34,377 nucleotides of DNA. Source: Acidimicrobiia bacterium (GTDB lineage: Bacteria; Actinomycetota; Acidimicrobiia; Spongiisociales; UBA5794). Below are positions 25,591 to 29,650 of this stretch, piece after piece; positions within the stretch are counted from its first letter, which is position 1, and the number at the start of each line of letters is the position of its first letter. A program made the position numbers and the translations under genes. The DNA lies in assembly GCA_030066265.1 (NCBI GenBank), contig JASJCF010000008.1, positions 1 through 34,377 of the forward strand, given 5' to 3'. The notes under the pieces are model-generated. The model was given only the letters and a program-made list of their open reading frames with translations. It was not told the origin of the DNA and did no database searches.

Positions 25591-27078
25591 TCAGGACGCC
25601 GCAGGATCTCCGCAGACGTCTTCGAGCCGCTCGAGGCCGAGTTCCGCAATCGCCCGCTCGGGGTCGGTGATGACCAGGTCGACGTGCTCGTGGACCAGCT
25701 CGACGTTGGCGACCCGCCCGGGCTGGCCGTCGTCGCGGTACTTCAGGTGGTAGTCAGGAGGGATGAACCTCACCGACACGACGTTCTCGAGATCCATGTC
25801 GGGGAGGAGCCGGATGAACTCGGGGAGAGCATCGATCGGGATGTCGGTCGTCATCGTCTCCTTGATGACGTCGGCGAGCTTGCCGAAGTTGAGTGCGAGC
25901 GATGCCGGGTCCGCCTGCTCCATGATGGCTTCGATGACGCACCGCTGGCGGTTCATGCGGAAGTAATCGCTGTCCTGATTCCGCGTTCGGGCGTATGCGA
26001 GCGCGAGATGTCCGTCCAGCTTCTGGGTACCGGCAGCGATCTCGATGCGCTCGTACGACGTGCCGTCCTCGTTCGGGTATTCCTCGTCGATGACGGTCGA
26101 CGGGACGTAGATCTCGACGCCGCCGAGCGCATCGACGATGTCCACGAACCCGTCGAGGTTCACCATGGCGTAGTAGTGGATCGGGATGCCGAGGAACTCG
26201 GAGATGACACCCTTGACGGCATTCTCGGACGGCGTCCCGGGGCCGGGGAACGCGTCCGGGTACCGCTCACCTGCGATCCACAGCTCGTTGATCAGCTCGG
26301 GGTAGCAGTCGCAATCCCACACGCCCATGCCGTCGGGGAGGGGCGCCTGTGTCCAGTTCCGGGGTACCGAGAACATCGCCGCTTCGCCCGTCTCCGGATC
26401 GATCGAGACGGTGATCATGGTGTCGGTGCGGATGCCGGTTCGCCCGGTGCCGAAGTCGCCGCCGATCAGCAGGACGTTGAGCCGTTCGAGACCGTCCCAG
26501 ATCACGCCGGTCGATTGGACCTCGGTGGTCGTGGTGCTGTCGGATCCAGCGGCACCGGCAGGCGAGGATGCGGTCTCGCCGACGGTCGGTGGCGATGTCG
26601 CCGTCGTCTCGCTCCCCGATGAGGGCTCGGCGCTGAACACCGAGGTGATCAGGTCGTATTGGACGACGTCGTAGTAGCCGAACACGACGTGCGGCACGGC
26701 CAGGACCGCAACGAGGACGGCGGCGGATGCGAAGACGGCGGATGTGTTCTTCGTTGCCACCCTCGGACCACGACCCTTTGCGAGGCGGTACGCGTCATCT
26801 GCGGCCCAGATGCGATAACCGAGCAACGCGATGTTGCCCACCATCATGATCGCCAACGAGTTGGGGCTGACCCAGTGGCTCAGCGTCGTGACGGTGTCCC
26901 GAAAGAACAGGAACACCACGACGAGGATGCCGGCGTTGATGGCCATCAACGACCAGCCGCGCCGTGATTCGCCGGCGATGAACTGGCCGGTGCCGGGGAT
27001 GATGGCGGATGCGAACGCGGCGAGCCACGGCCTGGTCGAGGACGTAGAGGAAGAGACAGGGACCTCGGCGGTGGACAT
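25591..27078 (-). CDS. LytR-CpsA-Psr (LCP) family ligase with multi-helix N-terminus
   Basis: A 495-residue membrane protein. LCP enzymes transfer glycan from undecaprenyl pyrophosphate carriers onto peptidoglycan outside the membrane. The LCP domain (about 190-480) has VLLIGGDFGTGRTGIRTDTM, the conserved Arg/Asp segment TMITVSIDPETG.AAMFSVPRN, IHYYAMVNLDGFVDIVDALGG and LAYARTRNQDSDYFRMNRQR, all hallmarks. The N-terminus has four hydrophobic helices (about 20-120) with IIPGTGQFIAGESRRG, a PGxGQ turn found in small membrane domains and unusual for LCP proteins, which commonly have one to three helices. A Ser/Thr-rich linker (about 150-190) follows. The ATG at 27078 is preferred because TACCAT sits 7 nt upstream; the longer frame reads through promoter DNA. 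It is divergent from the flippase-PGT gene. Confidence 0.9.
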   Translation of the reverse strand: MSTAEVPVSSSTSSTRPWLAAFASAIIPGTGQFIAGESRRGWSLMAINAGILVVVFLFFRDTVTTLSHWVSPNSLAIMMVGNIALLGYRIWAADDAYRLAKGRGPRVATKNTSAVFASAAVLVAVLAVPHVVFGYYDVVQYDLITSVFSAEPSSGSETTATSPPTVGETASSPAGAAGSDSTTTTEVQSTGVIWDGLERLNVLLIGGDFGTGRTGIRTDTMITVSIDPETGEAAMFSVPRNWTQAPLPDGMGVWDCDCYPELINELWIAGERYPDAFPGPGTPSENAVKGVISEFLGIPIHYYAMVNLDGFVDIVDALGGVEIYVPSTVIDEEYPNEDGTSYERIEIAAGTQKLDGHLALAYARTRNQDSDYFRMNRQRCVIEAIMEQADPASLALNFGKLADVIKETMTTDIPIDALPEFIRLLPDMDLENVVSVRFIPPDYHLKYRDDGQPGRVANVELVHEHVDLVITDPERAIAELGLERLEDVCGDPAAS

Positions 27079-27305: not shown

Positions 27306-29252
27306 TTGGATCAATCCACGACCCCACCGCCGGATCCGGAGCCGTCGAAGCGGCCCGGTGCCCGGTACGCCTACATGCGAAGCGACGGGACCCTCGACAT
27401 CGTCGTGGGCTCGTTCATCGCCGGGCTGGGTGGCTACGCGTACCAGTTCCTGGGGGGTCGGTCACTCGGTGAGGACGGCTTCGCCCCCATCGGGGTGCTC
27501 CTGACGGCTCACTTCCTGTCGTTCGTGATCGTGCTCATGCCCATCGAGCAGTTCGTGATTCGCCGGATCACGGTGGGAGCCCGAGGGTGGGTTGTTCCCC
27601 TGCGGGCGATCGCCCTCGTCGTGGCCGCCGGTGCGGCGGCGGTGTTCGTGGTGTCGGTTGCGGGCGATGACTACTTCACGAGCAGGCGCGAATTCGTCAT
27701 CTTCATGGTGCTCACGGTCGCCGGCCACTTCTTCTTCGCCGTTGGCCGGGGGTATCTCGCCGGGTTCCGTCGTTTCCGCGCCTACGGCTACTCGTCGGCC
27801 GCAGCTTCGATGTTGCGGCTCGCCATTGCGATCACGGTCGCCATCGTCGCCCCGACGGTGACCGGATTTGCCTGGGCGCATGTGCTGGGACCGCTGGTCA
27901 TCGTGTTCTGGCGTCCCTGGAAGCAGCCGGACGATGCAACACGCCTCACCGAGGAGGAGACGGCCGATACGTCTGAACGTGGCCTCCTGGCAGGGCTCGT
28001 GCTCTCCGCCGCTGCGTCCCAGGCGCTCCTGTTGGCGGGTCCTCTCGTGGCGTCGCGGCTCGGAGCGACCGCAGCCGAGTTCTCCGTCACCTATGCAACC
28101 TTGCTGATTGCACGAGCCCCGCTCACGCTCGGCTACAACCTCATTGCGCGGATCCTCCCCCCATTCACGGAGATGGCGGTGAAAGGGGAGTACCGCGAGC
28201 TGCGTGCGTGGGCTCGAGGCATTGCACTCGCTGCTGGGGTCCTGGCCGGCTTCGGAGCCCTCCTCGGGTCACTGCTCGGGCCGCTCCTGGTATCCGTTGC
28301 CTTCGGCGAGGGATTCGCCCCCGAGCCCGGTGTGGCGGCCCTTGCCGGGGCGGGGGTCGTCCTCGCAGCCGGTGCCCTCTTCATCGGTCAGATCCTCGTC
28401 GCACGCGGACAGTCGCTGCGGTTGCTGCTCGCCTGGCTCGCGGCGCTCGCGGCAGCCGCCTTCAGCCTCTTCCTGCCCATCGATGATCCCATCTACCGCG
28501 TGGTCGTGGCCTTCTTCGTCGGAGAAGTCGTTGCCCTGGCGGCGCTCGTCGTAGCCGCCCTGGCGAAGGAAGGCGACGAGACCTCCATCTCCCACGGCTA
28601 CGTCGTCGTCAAGCGATCGATCGACATCGGGGGCAGCCTGGTCGCACTCGTCCTCCTGTTCCCGATCCTCTTCGTCGCCGCCGTGCTCATCCGGGTCGGG
28701 TCGCCTGGTCCGGCGTTCTTCCGCCAGCAGCGTGTCGGCCGGAACGGACGCGACTTCTGGATGGTCAAGCTTCGCACCATGATCATCGATCACGACGAGG
28801 AGGTGTTCCGCGAGCATCTCGACCGTCTTCAGCAAACCGACCCGGACGACGGCATCTACACGATCAGGATCGACGAGGATCCCAGAGTCACCCCGATCGG
28901 TGCCAAGCTCCGCAAGTGGTCGATCGACGAGCTCCCCAACTTCTGGAACGTCCTGAAGGGCTCGATGTCGTTGGTCGGCCCGCGGCCACTCGTGCGAGAC
29001 GAGGCAGAGCTGATCGGCCTCGACGACGCACGATTCACCGTCAAACCGGGAATCACCGGCATGGCGCAGGTGCATGGCAGGGACGCCATCAGCCTCGAGG
29101 AACGCACCGAGTGGGATCACCGCTACGTGGAGGATCGATCGACGAGACTCGATCTTCGGATCCTGGTCCAGACCGTCGGCACGGTGTTCGCCGCTCCCGG
29201 CGCCGAGGATGAGCGGAATACTGATGCAGGAGCAGGGTTGGACGAGGCATGA
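27306..29252 (+). CDS. Fusion of polysaccharide flippase and phosphoglycosyltransferase
   Basis: A 648-residue membrane protein with two parts. Residues about 28-430 are an MOP-type (Wzx-like) flippase with roughly 12 hydrophobic helices (DGTLDIVVGSFIAGLGGYAY as first, ASQALLLAGPLVASRLG and LIARILPPFTEMA in the middle). Residues 436-640 are a monotopic bacterial sugar transferase: KRSIDIGGS and its re-entrant hydrophobic helix, PGPAFFRQQRVGRNG, the catalytic Asp541-Glu542 in SIDELPNFWNVLKGSMS, GPRPL (558-562) and KPGITGMAQVHGR. The first part would move lipid-linked glycan across the membrane; the second would load a sugar-1-phosphate onto undecaprenyl phosphate. The start is a TTG at 27306 with GGA upstream; the next ATG (27375) lacks a ribosome site. 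The 3' end overlaps the next gene (ATGA). Confidence 0.85.
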   Translation: MDQSTTPPPDPEPSKRPGARYAYMRSDGTLDIVVGSFIAGLGGYAYQFLGGRSLGEDGFAPIGVLLTAHFLSFVIVLMPIEQFVIRRITVGARGWVVPLRAIALVVAAGAAAVFVVSVAGDDYFTSRREFVIFMVLTVAGHFFFAVGRGYLAGFRRFRAYGYSSAAASMLRLAIAITVAIVAPTVTGFAWAHVLGPLVIVFWRPWKQPDDATRLTEEETADTSERGLLAGLVLSAAASQALLLAGPLVASRLGATAAEFSVTYATLLIARAPLTLGYNLIARILPPFTEMAVKGEYRELRAWARGIALAAGVLAGFGALLGSLLGPLLVSVAFGEGFAPEPGVAALAGAGVVLAAGALFIGQILVARGQSLRLLLAWLAALAAAAFSLFLPIDDPIYRVVVAFFVGEVVALAALVVAALAKEGDETSISHGYVVVKRSIDIGGSLVALVLLFPILFVAAVLIRVGSPGPAFFRQQRVGRNGRDFWMVKLRTMIIDHDEEVFREHLDRLQQTDPDDGIYTIRIDEDPRVTPIGAKLRKWSIDELPNFWNVLKGSMSLVGPRPLVRDEAELIGLDDARFTVKPGITGMAQVHGRDAISLEERTEWDHRYVEDRSTRLDLRILVQTVGTVFAAPGAEDERNTDAGAGLDEA

Positions 29253-29650
29253 CCGACCCCGTCAGCGAGCGCTTGTCTCTCCCCGATCCTCTCATCGCCG
29301 TGGTCGGCGCAACCGATGCGCCGGGCAAATACGGAGGGATCATCTATCGCGATCTCAAGCAGAAGGGGTATCGGGTCGTCGGGGTGAACCCCGGTCGCCC
29401 CACGGTGGATGGTGACCCGGCCTACCCCTCGCTCGCTTCGCTGCCCGAGGTCCCCGACATCGTCAACGTCGTCGTGCCCCCTCCGCAAACGCTCAGCATC
29501 CTCGAAGAGGCGGCCCAGCTCGGCGATGTGGCGGTCTGGATCCAGCCGGGAGCGGCGGACACCGCCGTCCGGGAGCGTGCGGCGGAGTTGGGGCTTGCGA
29601 CCCTGATCGACGCCTGCATCATGGTCCGGGCCAGGTCGGTCAGTCGATGA
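29249..29650 (+). CDS. CoA-binding domain protein (YccU-like)
   Basis: A 133-residue Rossmann-fold protein. LIAVVGATDAPGKYGGIIYRDLKQKGYRVVGVNPG (nucleotide-binding GATDxPxKYG key), SLASLPEVPDIVNVVVPP and the terminal DACIMV are the marks of the small CoA-binding protein group. Their cellular role is unsettled; they bind CoA or acyl-CoA. It overlaps the flippase-PGT gene by 4 nt (ATGA), so it is translationally coupled to it. Confidence 0.86.
   Translation: MTDPVSERLSLPDPLIAVVGATDAPGKYGGIIYRDLKQKGYRVVGVNPGRPTVDGDPAYPSLASLPEVPDIVNVVVPPPQTLSILEEAAQLGDVAVWIQPGAADTAVRERAAELGLATLIDACIMVRARSVSR

Follow-up and report, generated by a model that had tools for sequence, protein, structure and literature searches.

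Introduction

Bifunctional monotopic phosphoglycosyltransferases (Bi-PGTs), in which a partner is fused N- or C-terminally to the phosphoglycosyltransferase (PGT), are a recognised category (PMC10942596). It is largely an open question how the first committed step of surface-glycan synthesis is matched to export without trapping the scarce carrier undecaprenyl phosphate. In the main survey of monotopic-PGT fusions, the partners are reportedly sugar-modifying enzymes, glycosyltransferases, regulatory domains and polytopic PGTs, and to our knowledge no flippase is among them. The lipid II flippase MurJ has 14 helices. The O-unit flippase WzxE requires an arginine-rich tail at its C terminus, located at the cytoplasmic mouth (PMC11706664).

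Here we analysed a contig of an Acidimicrobiia bacterium (JASJCF010000008.1; the window, that is, the whole stretch of 34,377 nucleotides), in which a flippase domain runs directly into a monotopic PGT. We consider it reasonably probable that this fusion acts as both initiator and flippase for a wall glycan linked to undecaprenyl diphosphate, a glycan that would be attached by the neighbouring LytR-CpsA-Psr (LCP) protein; catalysis and flipping, like the sugar and the acceptor, are predicted features of this proposal.

Results

Both domains lie in a single open frame

The fusion gene (27306..29252, + strand) is a single open frame of 648 residues with a TTG start. It was assigned from the open frame, PF02397, the fold and homologous loci as a monotopic PGT preceded by a flippase domain of the MOP fold, and the frame was just as an earlier sequence-only reading of the window had described it. 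Third-position GC was 0.75-0.88 along the full length of the frame and 0.88 across codons 401-460, indicating that coding runs on through the fusion junction. The linker from helix 12 to the PGT (residues 420-431; 28563..28598, + strand) is a low-confidence segment of the model, and in the linker alignment its length and sequence vary among homologues.

The sequence-only reading had also allowed that a sequencing error near 28590 might have joined two adjacent genes. The window is one MAG contig, and all named genomes with the fusion are metagenome assemblies; no support for such an artefact was found. The N-domain profile identified 35 named loci, with titles mainly of Acidimicrobiia or Actinobacteria MAGs, and the junction lay in one open frame at 33 of them, in independent assemblies; of the other two, L036 ends at the junction and L060 has a run of N there. 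With the junction open at these loci, aligned homologues 48-72% identical to the window protein and an unbroken coding signal, the joining of two genes by sequencing or assembly was ruled out, and we give it a vanishingly small probability.

Within the class (395 genomes), cross-domain matches were confined to three families of the window's order (f1, f2 and f4), and among 396 genomes across the phylum, the matches listed that span both halves came only from this order; in the Actinomycetota genomes sampled, the two-domain architecture was thus seen in one order only. No plasmid record covered 80% of the fusion protein, and the best places covered the PGT half only. Four loci (L064, L034, L036 and L051) are titled Armatimonadetes or Acidobacteria, and their proteins either nest within the Acidimicrobiia ones or are identical to them; L064, for instance, is titled Armatimonadetes, but its sequence sits among Acidimicrobiia sequences. 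These titles probably reflect misnamed metagenome bins. Two fused copies were apparently broken, L123 (G264:C5) by a frame change in the PGT and L051/L100 (G278) by a stop codon within the frame of the flippase half, through either decay or sequencing error. Long frames at the N-domain matches L118-L121 were considered as further fusions and rejected as chance open frames upstream of standalone genes.

The C-terminal half is predicted to be a complete monotopic PGT

The PGT domain (residues 432-630; 28599..29195, + strand) was delimited by PF02397, fold and catalytic motifs. The PF02397 match covered residues 436-628 and profile positions 1-178 of 179, above cut-off (E 7.9e-59). The Asp541-Glu542 dyad (28926-28931), already pointed out from the sequence, was invariant across 30 aligned homologues, full or partial, as were R490-T491-M492, V557-G-P-R-P561, K580-P-G582 and G591-R-D593. 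In the Foldseek comparison of the whole model with the PDB, the PGT half matched PglC (8e37, E 2.5e-8) and WbaP (8t53, E 7.6e-6). The fusion scored below the curated cut-offs of the large-PGT models TIGR03025 (242 bits against 295.55), TIGR03022 and TIGR03023, and in the AlphaFold2 model and Foldseek searches the four-helix bundle plus DUF that precedes the catalytic domain in WbaP was absent, a 12-helix MOP domain standing in its place. By family, motifs and fold, the C-terminal half is a complete monotopic PGT that would be expected to be catalytic.

The N-terminal half adopts a predicted MOP flippase fold

The flippase domain (residues 29-419; 27390..28562, + strand), defined by AlphaFold2, Foldseek and invariant residues, has 12 predicted transmembrane helices. 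The full-length AlphaFold2 model, built from a 30-sequence alignment (pLDDT 83, pTM 0.84), showed twelve long helices arranged as 6+6 in these residues and the PGT at about 432-630. The N-domain was also modelled alone (pLDDT 87.4, pTM 0.87). In Foldseek searches of the PDB, PglC and WbaP headed the matches of the whole model, ahead of MurJ, WzxE and MATE transporters, and for the N-domain alone the best 50 matches were all MOP-superfamily transporters (MurJ, WzxE, MATE), among them MurJ 9nu5 (E 6e-6) and WzxE 9g9p (E 3e-5, TM-score 0.60). The earlier proposal of a Wzx-like flippase of roughly 12 helices was thus borne out by the fold, as the half came out as a MOP transporter when modelled. 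A domain search agreed with that proposal in part: PF02397 was found, and the N-terminal half of the window protein had no family match in Pfam or NCBIfam. Among the relatives scanned, two matched Polysacc_synt (PF01943) below cut-off (E 5.5e-4 and 1.6e-4), and profile-profile comparison gave no link to WzxE or MurJ, a comparison in which the positive control, MurJ against WzxE, failed too. The domain defines a MOP subfamily outside Pfam and NCBIfam coverage.

Eight residues of this domain (E81, R86, Q239, S260, R270, R282, Q362 and W377) were invariant in both fused and standalone members. E81 and R86 lie on TM2, Q239 on TM7, R270 and R282 on TM8, and Q362 on TM10; in WzxE, the cavity is formed by a set of helices that includes TM2, TM7, TM8 and TM10 (PMC11706664). 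The invariant polar residues are therefore expected, on the model, to sit on lumen-lining helices. The flippase half has a mean pairwise identity of 0.59 and the PGT half one of 0.61, the two being correlated (r 0.88), and because both diverge equally, neither is decaying. If both termini are inside, the positive charges of the protein would lie mostly in cytoplasmic loops, which would place the PGT on the correct face. By its predicted fold, the N-terminal half holds as a MOP-like flippase, presumably one that flips.

The MurJ family (PF03023) had no match anywhere in the window's own genome, fusion included, as would be seen if the flippase half replaced MurJ as the lipid II flippase. However, MurJ was found in 39 of 42 high-quality relatives, including G001 of the same genus, which also has the fusion; the own genome is 91% complete, and its MurJ gap is probably a missing contig. 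Since MurJ is encoded separately in these relatives, the lipid II role was rejected, and we regard it as highly improbable.

An LCP gene is the consistent neighbour of the fusion

An LCP gene, which the sequence-only reading had not mentioned, lies divergently upstream of the fusion (25591..27078, - strand; PF03816, E 4.7e-30), with a start-to-start distance of about 227 bp as judged from the predicted LCP start codon. Its R300 and D302 (R-x-D), R447, R449, R457 and R460 were invariant in 24 sequences (numbering of the 578-residue frame), and from PF03816 and these conserved Arg/Asp active-site residues the neighbour is assigned as a glycopolymer ligase of the LCP family.

Where at least 800 bp of upstream sequence was available, the LCP gene was adjacent and divergent at 24 of 28 named fused loci. 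Among the exceptions, L038 has its LCP gene about 2 kb downstream and L063 has an LCP fragment nearby; at L053 and L062 no LCP gene was found in the stretch examined, and a histidine kinase gene occupies the LCP position (L053:3941-5647 and L062:3832-5346). Both of these fused loci come from one genus, g12. An LCP gene of the same subfamily is the immediate neighbour in convergent orientation at the f4 loci (L074, L075) and in a divergent branch of f2 (L122-L124), and one LCP subfamily thus adjoins the fusion in three deep branches and two arrangements. On the other side of the fusion in f4 lies a gene for a beta-propeller (PQQ/BamB-like) protein (L074:9912-11468, L063:3960-5504).

Downstream in the window, a CoA_binding_2 protein gene (29249..29650, + strand; PF13380, E 8.5e-33) starts in overlap with the fusion stop (ATGA). 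It is syntenic in family f1, was present in 14 loci, and probably stands outside the mechanism. Other neighbours of the fusion vary, from CoA_binding_2 and small genes in f1 to peptidases and peptide transporters elsewhere. The downstream clusters of distant fused loci (L054, L065 and others) were considered as glycan genes and rejected, as they encode M20 peptidases and peptide ABC transporters. Because the LCP gene is kept in two arrangements while the other neighbours vary, the LCP link survives rearrangement, and it is the strongest pointer to the pathway. In the fused loci compared, no glycosyltransferase, polymerase or sugar-nucleotide gene was conserved beside the fusion, and so we infer the pathway from the LCP link alone.

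Unfused relatives keep the flippase at the LCP locus

Genome G296 has no fusion, and the flanks of its locus L154 match those of fused loci, comprising an LCP gene (62-65% identity to fused-locus LCPs), a CoA_binding_2 gene, and genes for a 208-residue protein and a zinc-ribbon protein. The interval from the LCP gene to the CoA_binding_2 gene contains two separate genes, one for a small PGT and one for a flippase of the same clade as that of the fusion. This loss of the fused PGT with a different PGT adjacent is what we would expect if the locus needs PGT activity. In G334, the flippase gene lies beside an LCP gene with no adjacent PGT.

In the flippase tree, 34 fused and 5 unfused rows formed one clade (SH-aLRT 96), the unfused members being those of G296 and G334 and three from family f8. 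All lineages of this clade had an LCP gene adjacent or within about 2 kb, except L053/L062 and contigs that were too short. The other standalone flippases checked, several of them beside large-PGT genes, had no LCP gene in the stretch examined. As the unfused members of the clade also have an LCP gene nearby, the pairing of flippase and LCP is older than, or independent of, the fusion.

In the PGT-domain tree, all 37 fused rows fell on one side of a branch with weak support (68). The flippase tree rejected monophyly of the fused rows (p-AU 0.0036), because the unfused G296 and G334 nest beside the fused family f4, and with it a single fusion origin without later loss. Both trees are quick trees without bootstrap, and one fusion event followed by later loss fits both, with PGT loss and replacement at the G296/G334 branch as the simplest reading. 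In G037, G044 and G051, a large PGT gene adjoins a flippase gene; the joining of such a pair was rejected as a simple origin, because the order there is reversed, PGT then flippase, and these PGTs are of a different type. Separately, a 427-residue frame in G042 (family f7, same order; L127:3803-5083) encodes a PGT-PGT protein with two tandem PF02397 stretches (E 2.4e-112) and runs to the contig end.

These relatives bear on whether the MOP half transports at all. It might instead anchor, localise or regulate the PGT, as the N-terminal parts of WbaP do, leaving export of the glycan to another flippase; large PGTs have an N-terminal membrane helix bundle plus DUF (PMC10942596), and a second MOP paralogue is present in the window's genome. 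However, the transmembrane polar residues are invariant and occur in standalone flippases too, and the MOP half has evolved at the same slow pace as the PGT. In G296 and G334, moreover, standalone clade members are kept at the LCP locus without a PGT domain, which argues that the flippase half is kept in its own right. We therefore judge a non-transporting role to be quite unlikely. The idea of a flippase fused to an initiating PGT, put forward from the sequence, drew support from family search, fold search, conservation and these unfused equivalents alike.

Other glycan genes in the genome leave room for extension

The genome of the window contains 11 GT4 matches and two Wzy_C proteins above cut-off, so elongation or polymerisation by proteins encoded elsewhere is possible. 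The second, standalone flippase-family member (G000:C12:15741-16910) lies within a few kilobases of GT4 and GT2 genes, and a large PGT is encoded on another contig (G000:C27:1154-1744); together they are probably a separate, conventional polysaccharide pathway. Because the genome has this second PGT/flippase set, the fusion most likely serves a separate, dedicated glycan.

That glycan could also be minimal. The sequence-only reading had suggested that a fusion could favour very short glycans, an idea for which the gene content spoke neither for nor against. The PGT product might be flipped at once with little or no extension and then placed by the LCP protein on peptidoglycan or protein, giving three steps from two genes. 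In keeping with such a scheme, consistent linkage is limited to the fusion and the LCP gene, and no glycosyltransferase is conserved beside them; MprF, in which a single protein both makes and flips a lipid, offers a precedent by analogy (PMC8131360), and for the actinobacterial LCP protein LcpA of A. oris, a study reported no attachment of glycopolymers to peptidoglycan (PMC7831098). Against it, the GT4 and Wzy_C genes elsewhere would allow extension, and we consider the scheme unlikely, if deserving of attention. A stricter form, by analogy with the logic of MprF, would be an obligately coupled enzyme that passes Und-PP-sugar straight into its own flippase and then to the partner LCP with little or no elongation; this is a speculative idea, and we are inclined to doubt it. 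If true, it would amount to a two-gene surface-glycosylation pathway.

Discussion

For the reading that we favour, an initiator-flippase of a dedicated wall glycan, the following course can be proposed. On the cytoplasmic face, the C-terminal PGT would transfer sugar-1-phosphate from an NDP-sugar to undecaprenyl phosphate, and glycosyltransferases encoded elsewhere would probably extend the resulting Und-PP-sugar. The N-terminal MOP domain, with the cytoplasmic entrance of its lumen next to the tethered PGT, would then move the Und-PP-glycan to the outer leaflet. A Wzy_C protein may polymerise the glycan, and the LCP protein would transfer it to peptidoglycan or another surface acceptor. The fusion would put carrier loading and flipping at one site. 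The PGT is attached right after helix 12, at the end that corresponds to the arginine tail of WzxE, and by this analogy it may tether loading to the flippase mouth.

Directly supported within this proposal are the fusion, both folds, the PGT motifs, the polar residues on lumen helices, the LCP linkage and the two-gene replacement in a relative. Counting against it are the lack of a conserved glycosyltransferase, polymerase or sugar-nucleotide gene beside the fusion, the fused loci L053 and L062 that have no LCP gene in the stretch examined, and the flippase of G334 that lies beside an LCP gene without an adjacent PGT. If the proposal holds, a single protein in this lineage of uncultured actinobacteria would physically couple the initiation of a wall glycan to its export. 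The fused and two-gene versions of the same locus offer a natural comparison for testing the importance of coupling, and with the LCP neighbour as the candidate last step, a PGT-flippase-LCP module becomes testable as a unit.

The sequence-only reading knew of no described system with this architecture. In the open literature, a scope that leaves the main monotopic-PGT fusion survey outside, we likewise found no description of a flippase-PGT fusion; that reading needs amending in so far as Bi-PGTs are already a category, and by architecture the fusion fits it. Among the PGTs, PglC, a small monotopic enzyme that is the catalytic core alone, is the best fold match of the PGT half (8e37). The large monotopic PGTs WbaP and WcaJ share the catalytic domain and motifs and also carry their membrane domain N-terminally, but theirs is a four-helix bundle plus DUF, whereas that of the fusion is a 12-helix MOP flippase. 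With WzxE and the Wzx O-unit flippases, the fusion has in common the 12-helix MOP fold (TM-score 0.60) and polar residues on cavity-forming helices; in contrast, there is no detectable sequence relationship, and the fusion ends in a PGT where WzxE ends in its essential arginine tail. The MOP fold is likewise common to MurJ (9nu5, E 6e-6), but the fusion has 12 helices and does not match PF03023. MprF, the aminoacyl-phospholipid synthase-flippase, follows the same principle of a lipid made and flipped by one protein (PMC8131360), although its domains and substrate are unrelated and the likeness is one of analogy only. Taken together, these comparisons provisionally suggest a new architecture of known parts, with both halves drawn from known superfamilies.
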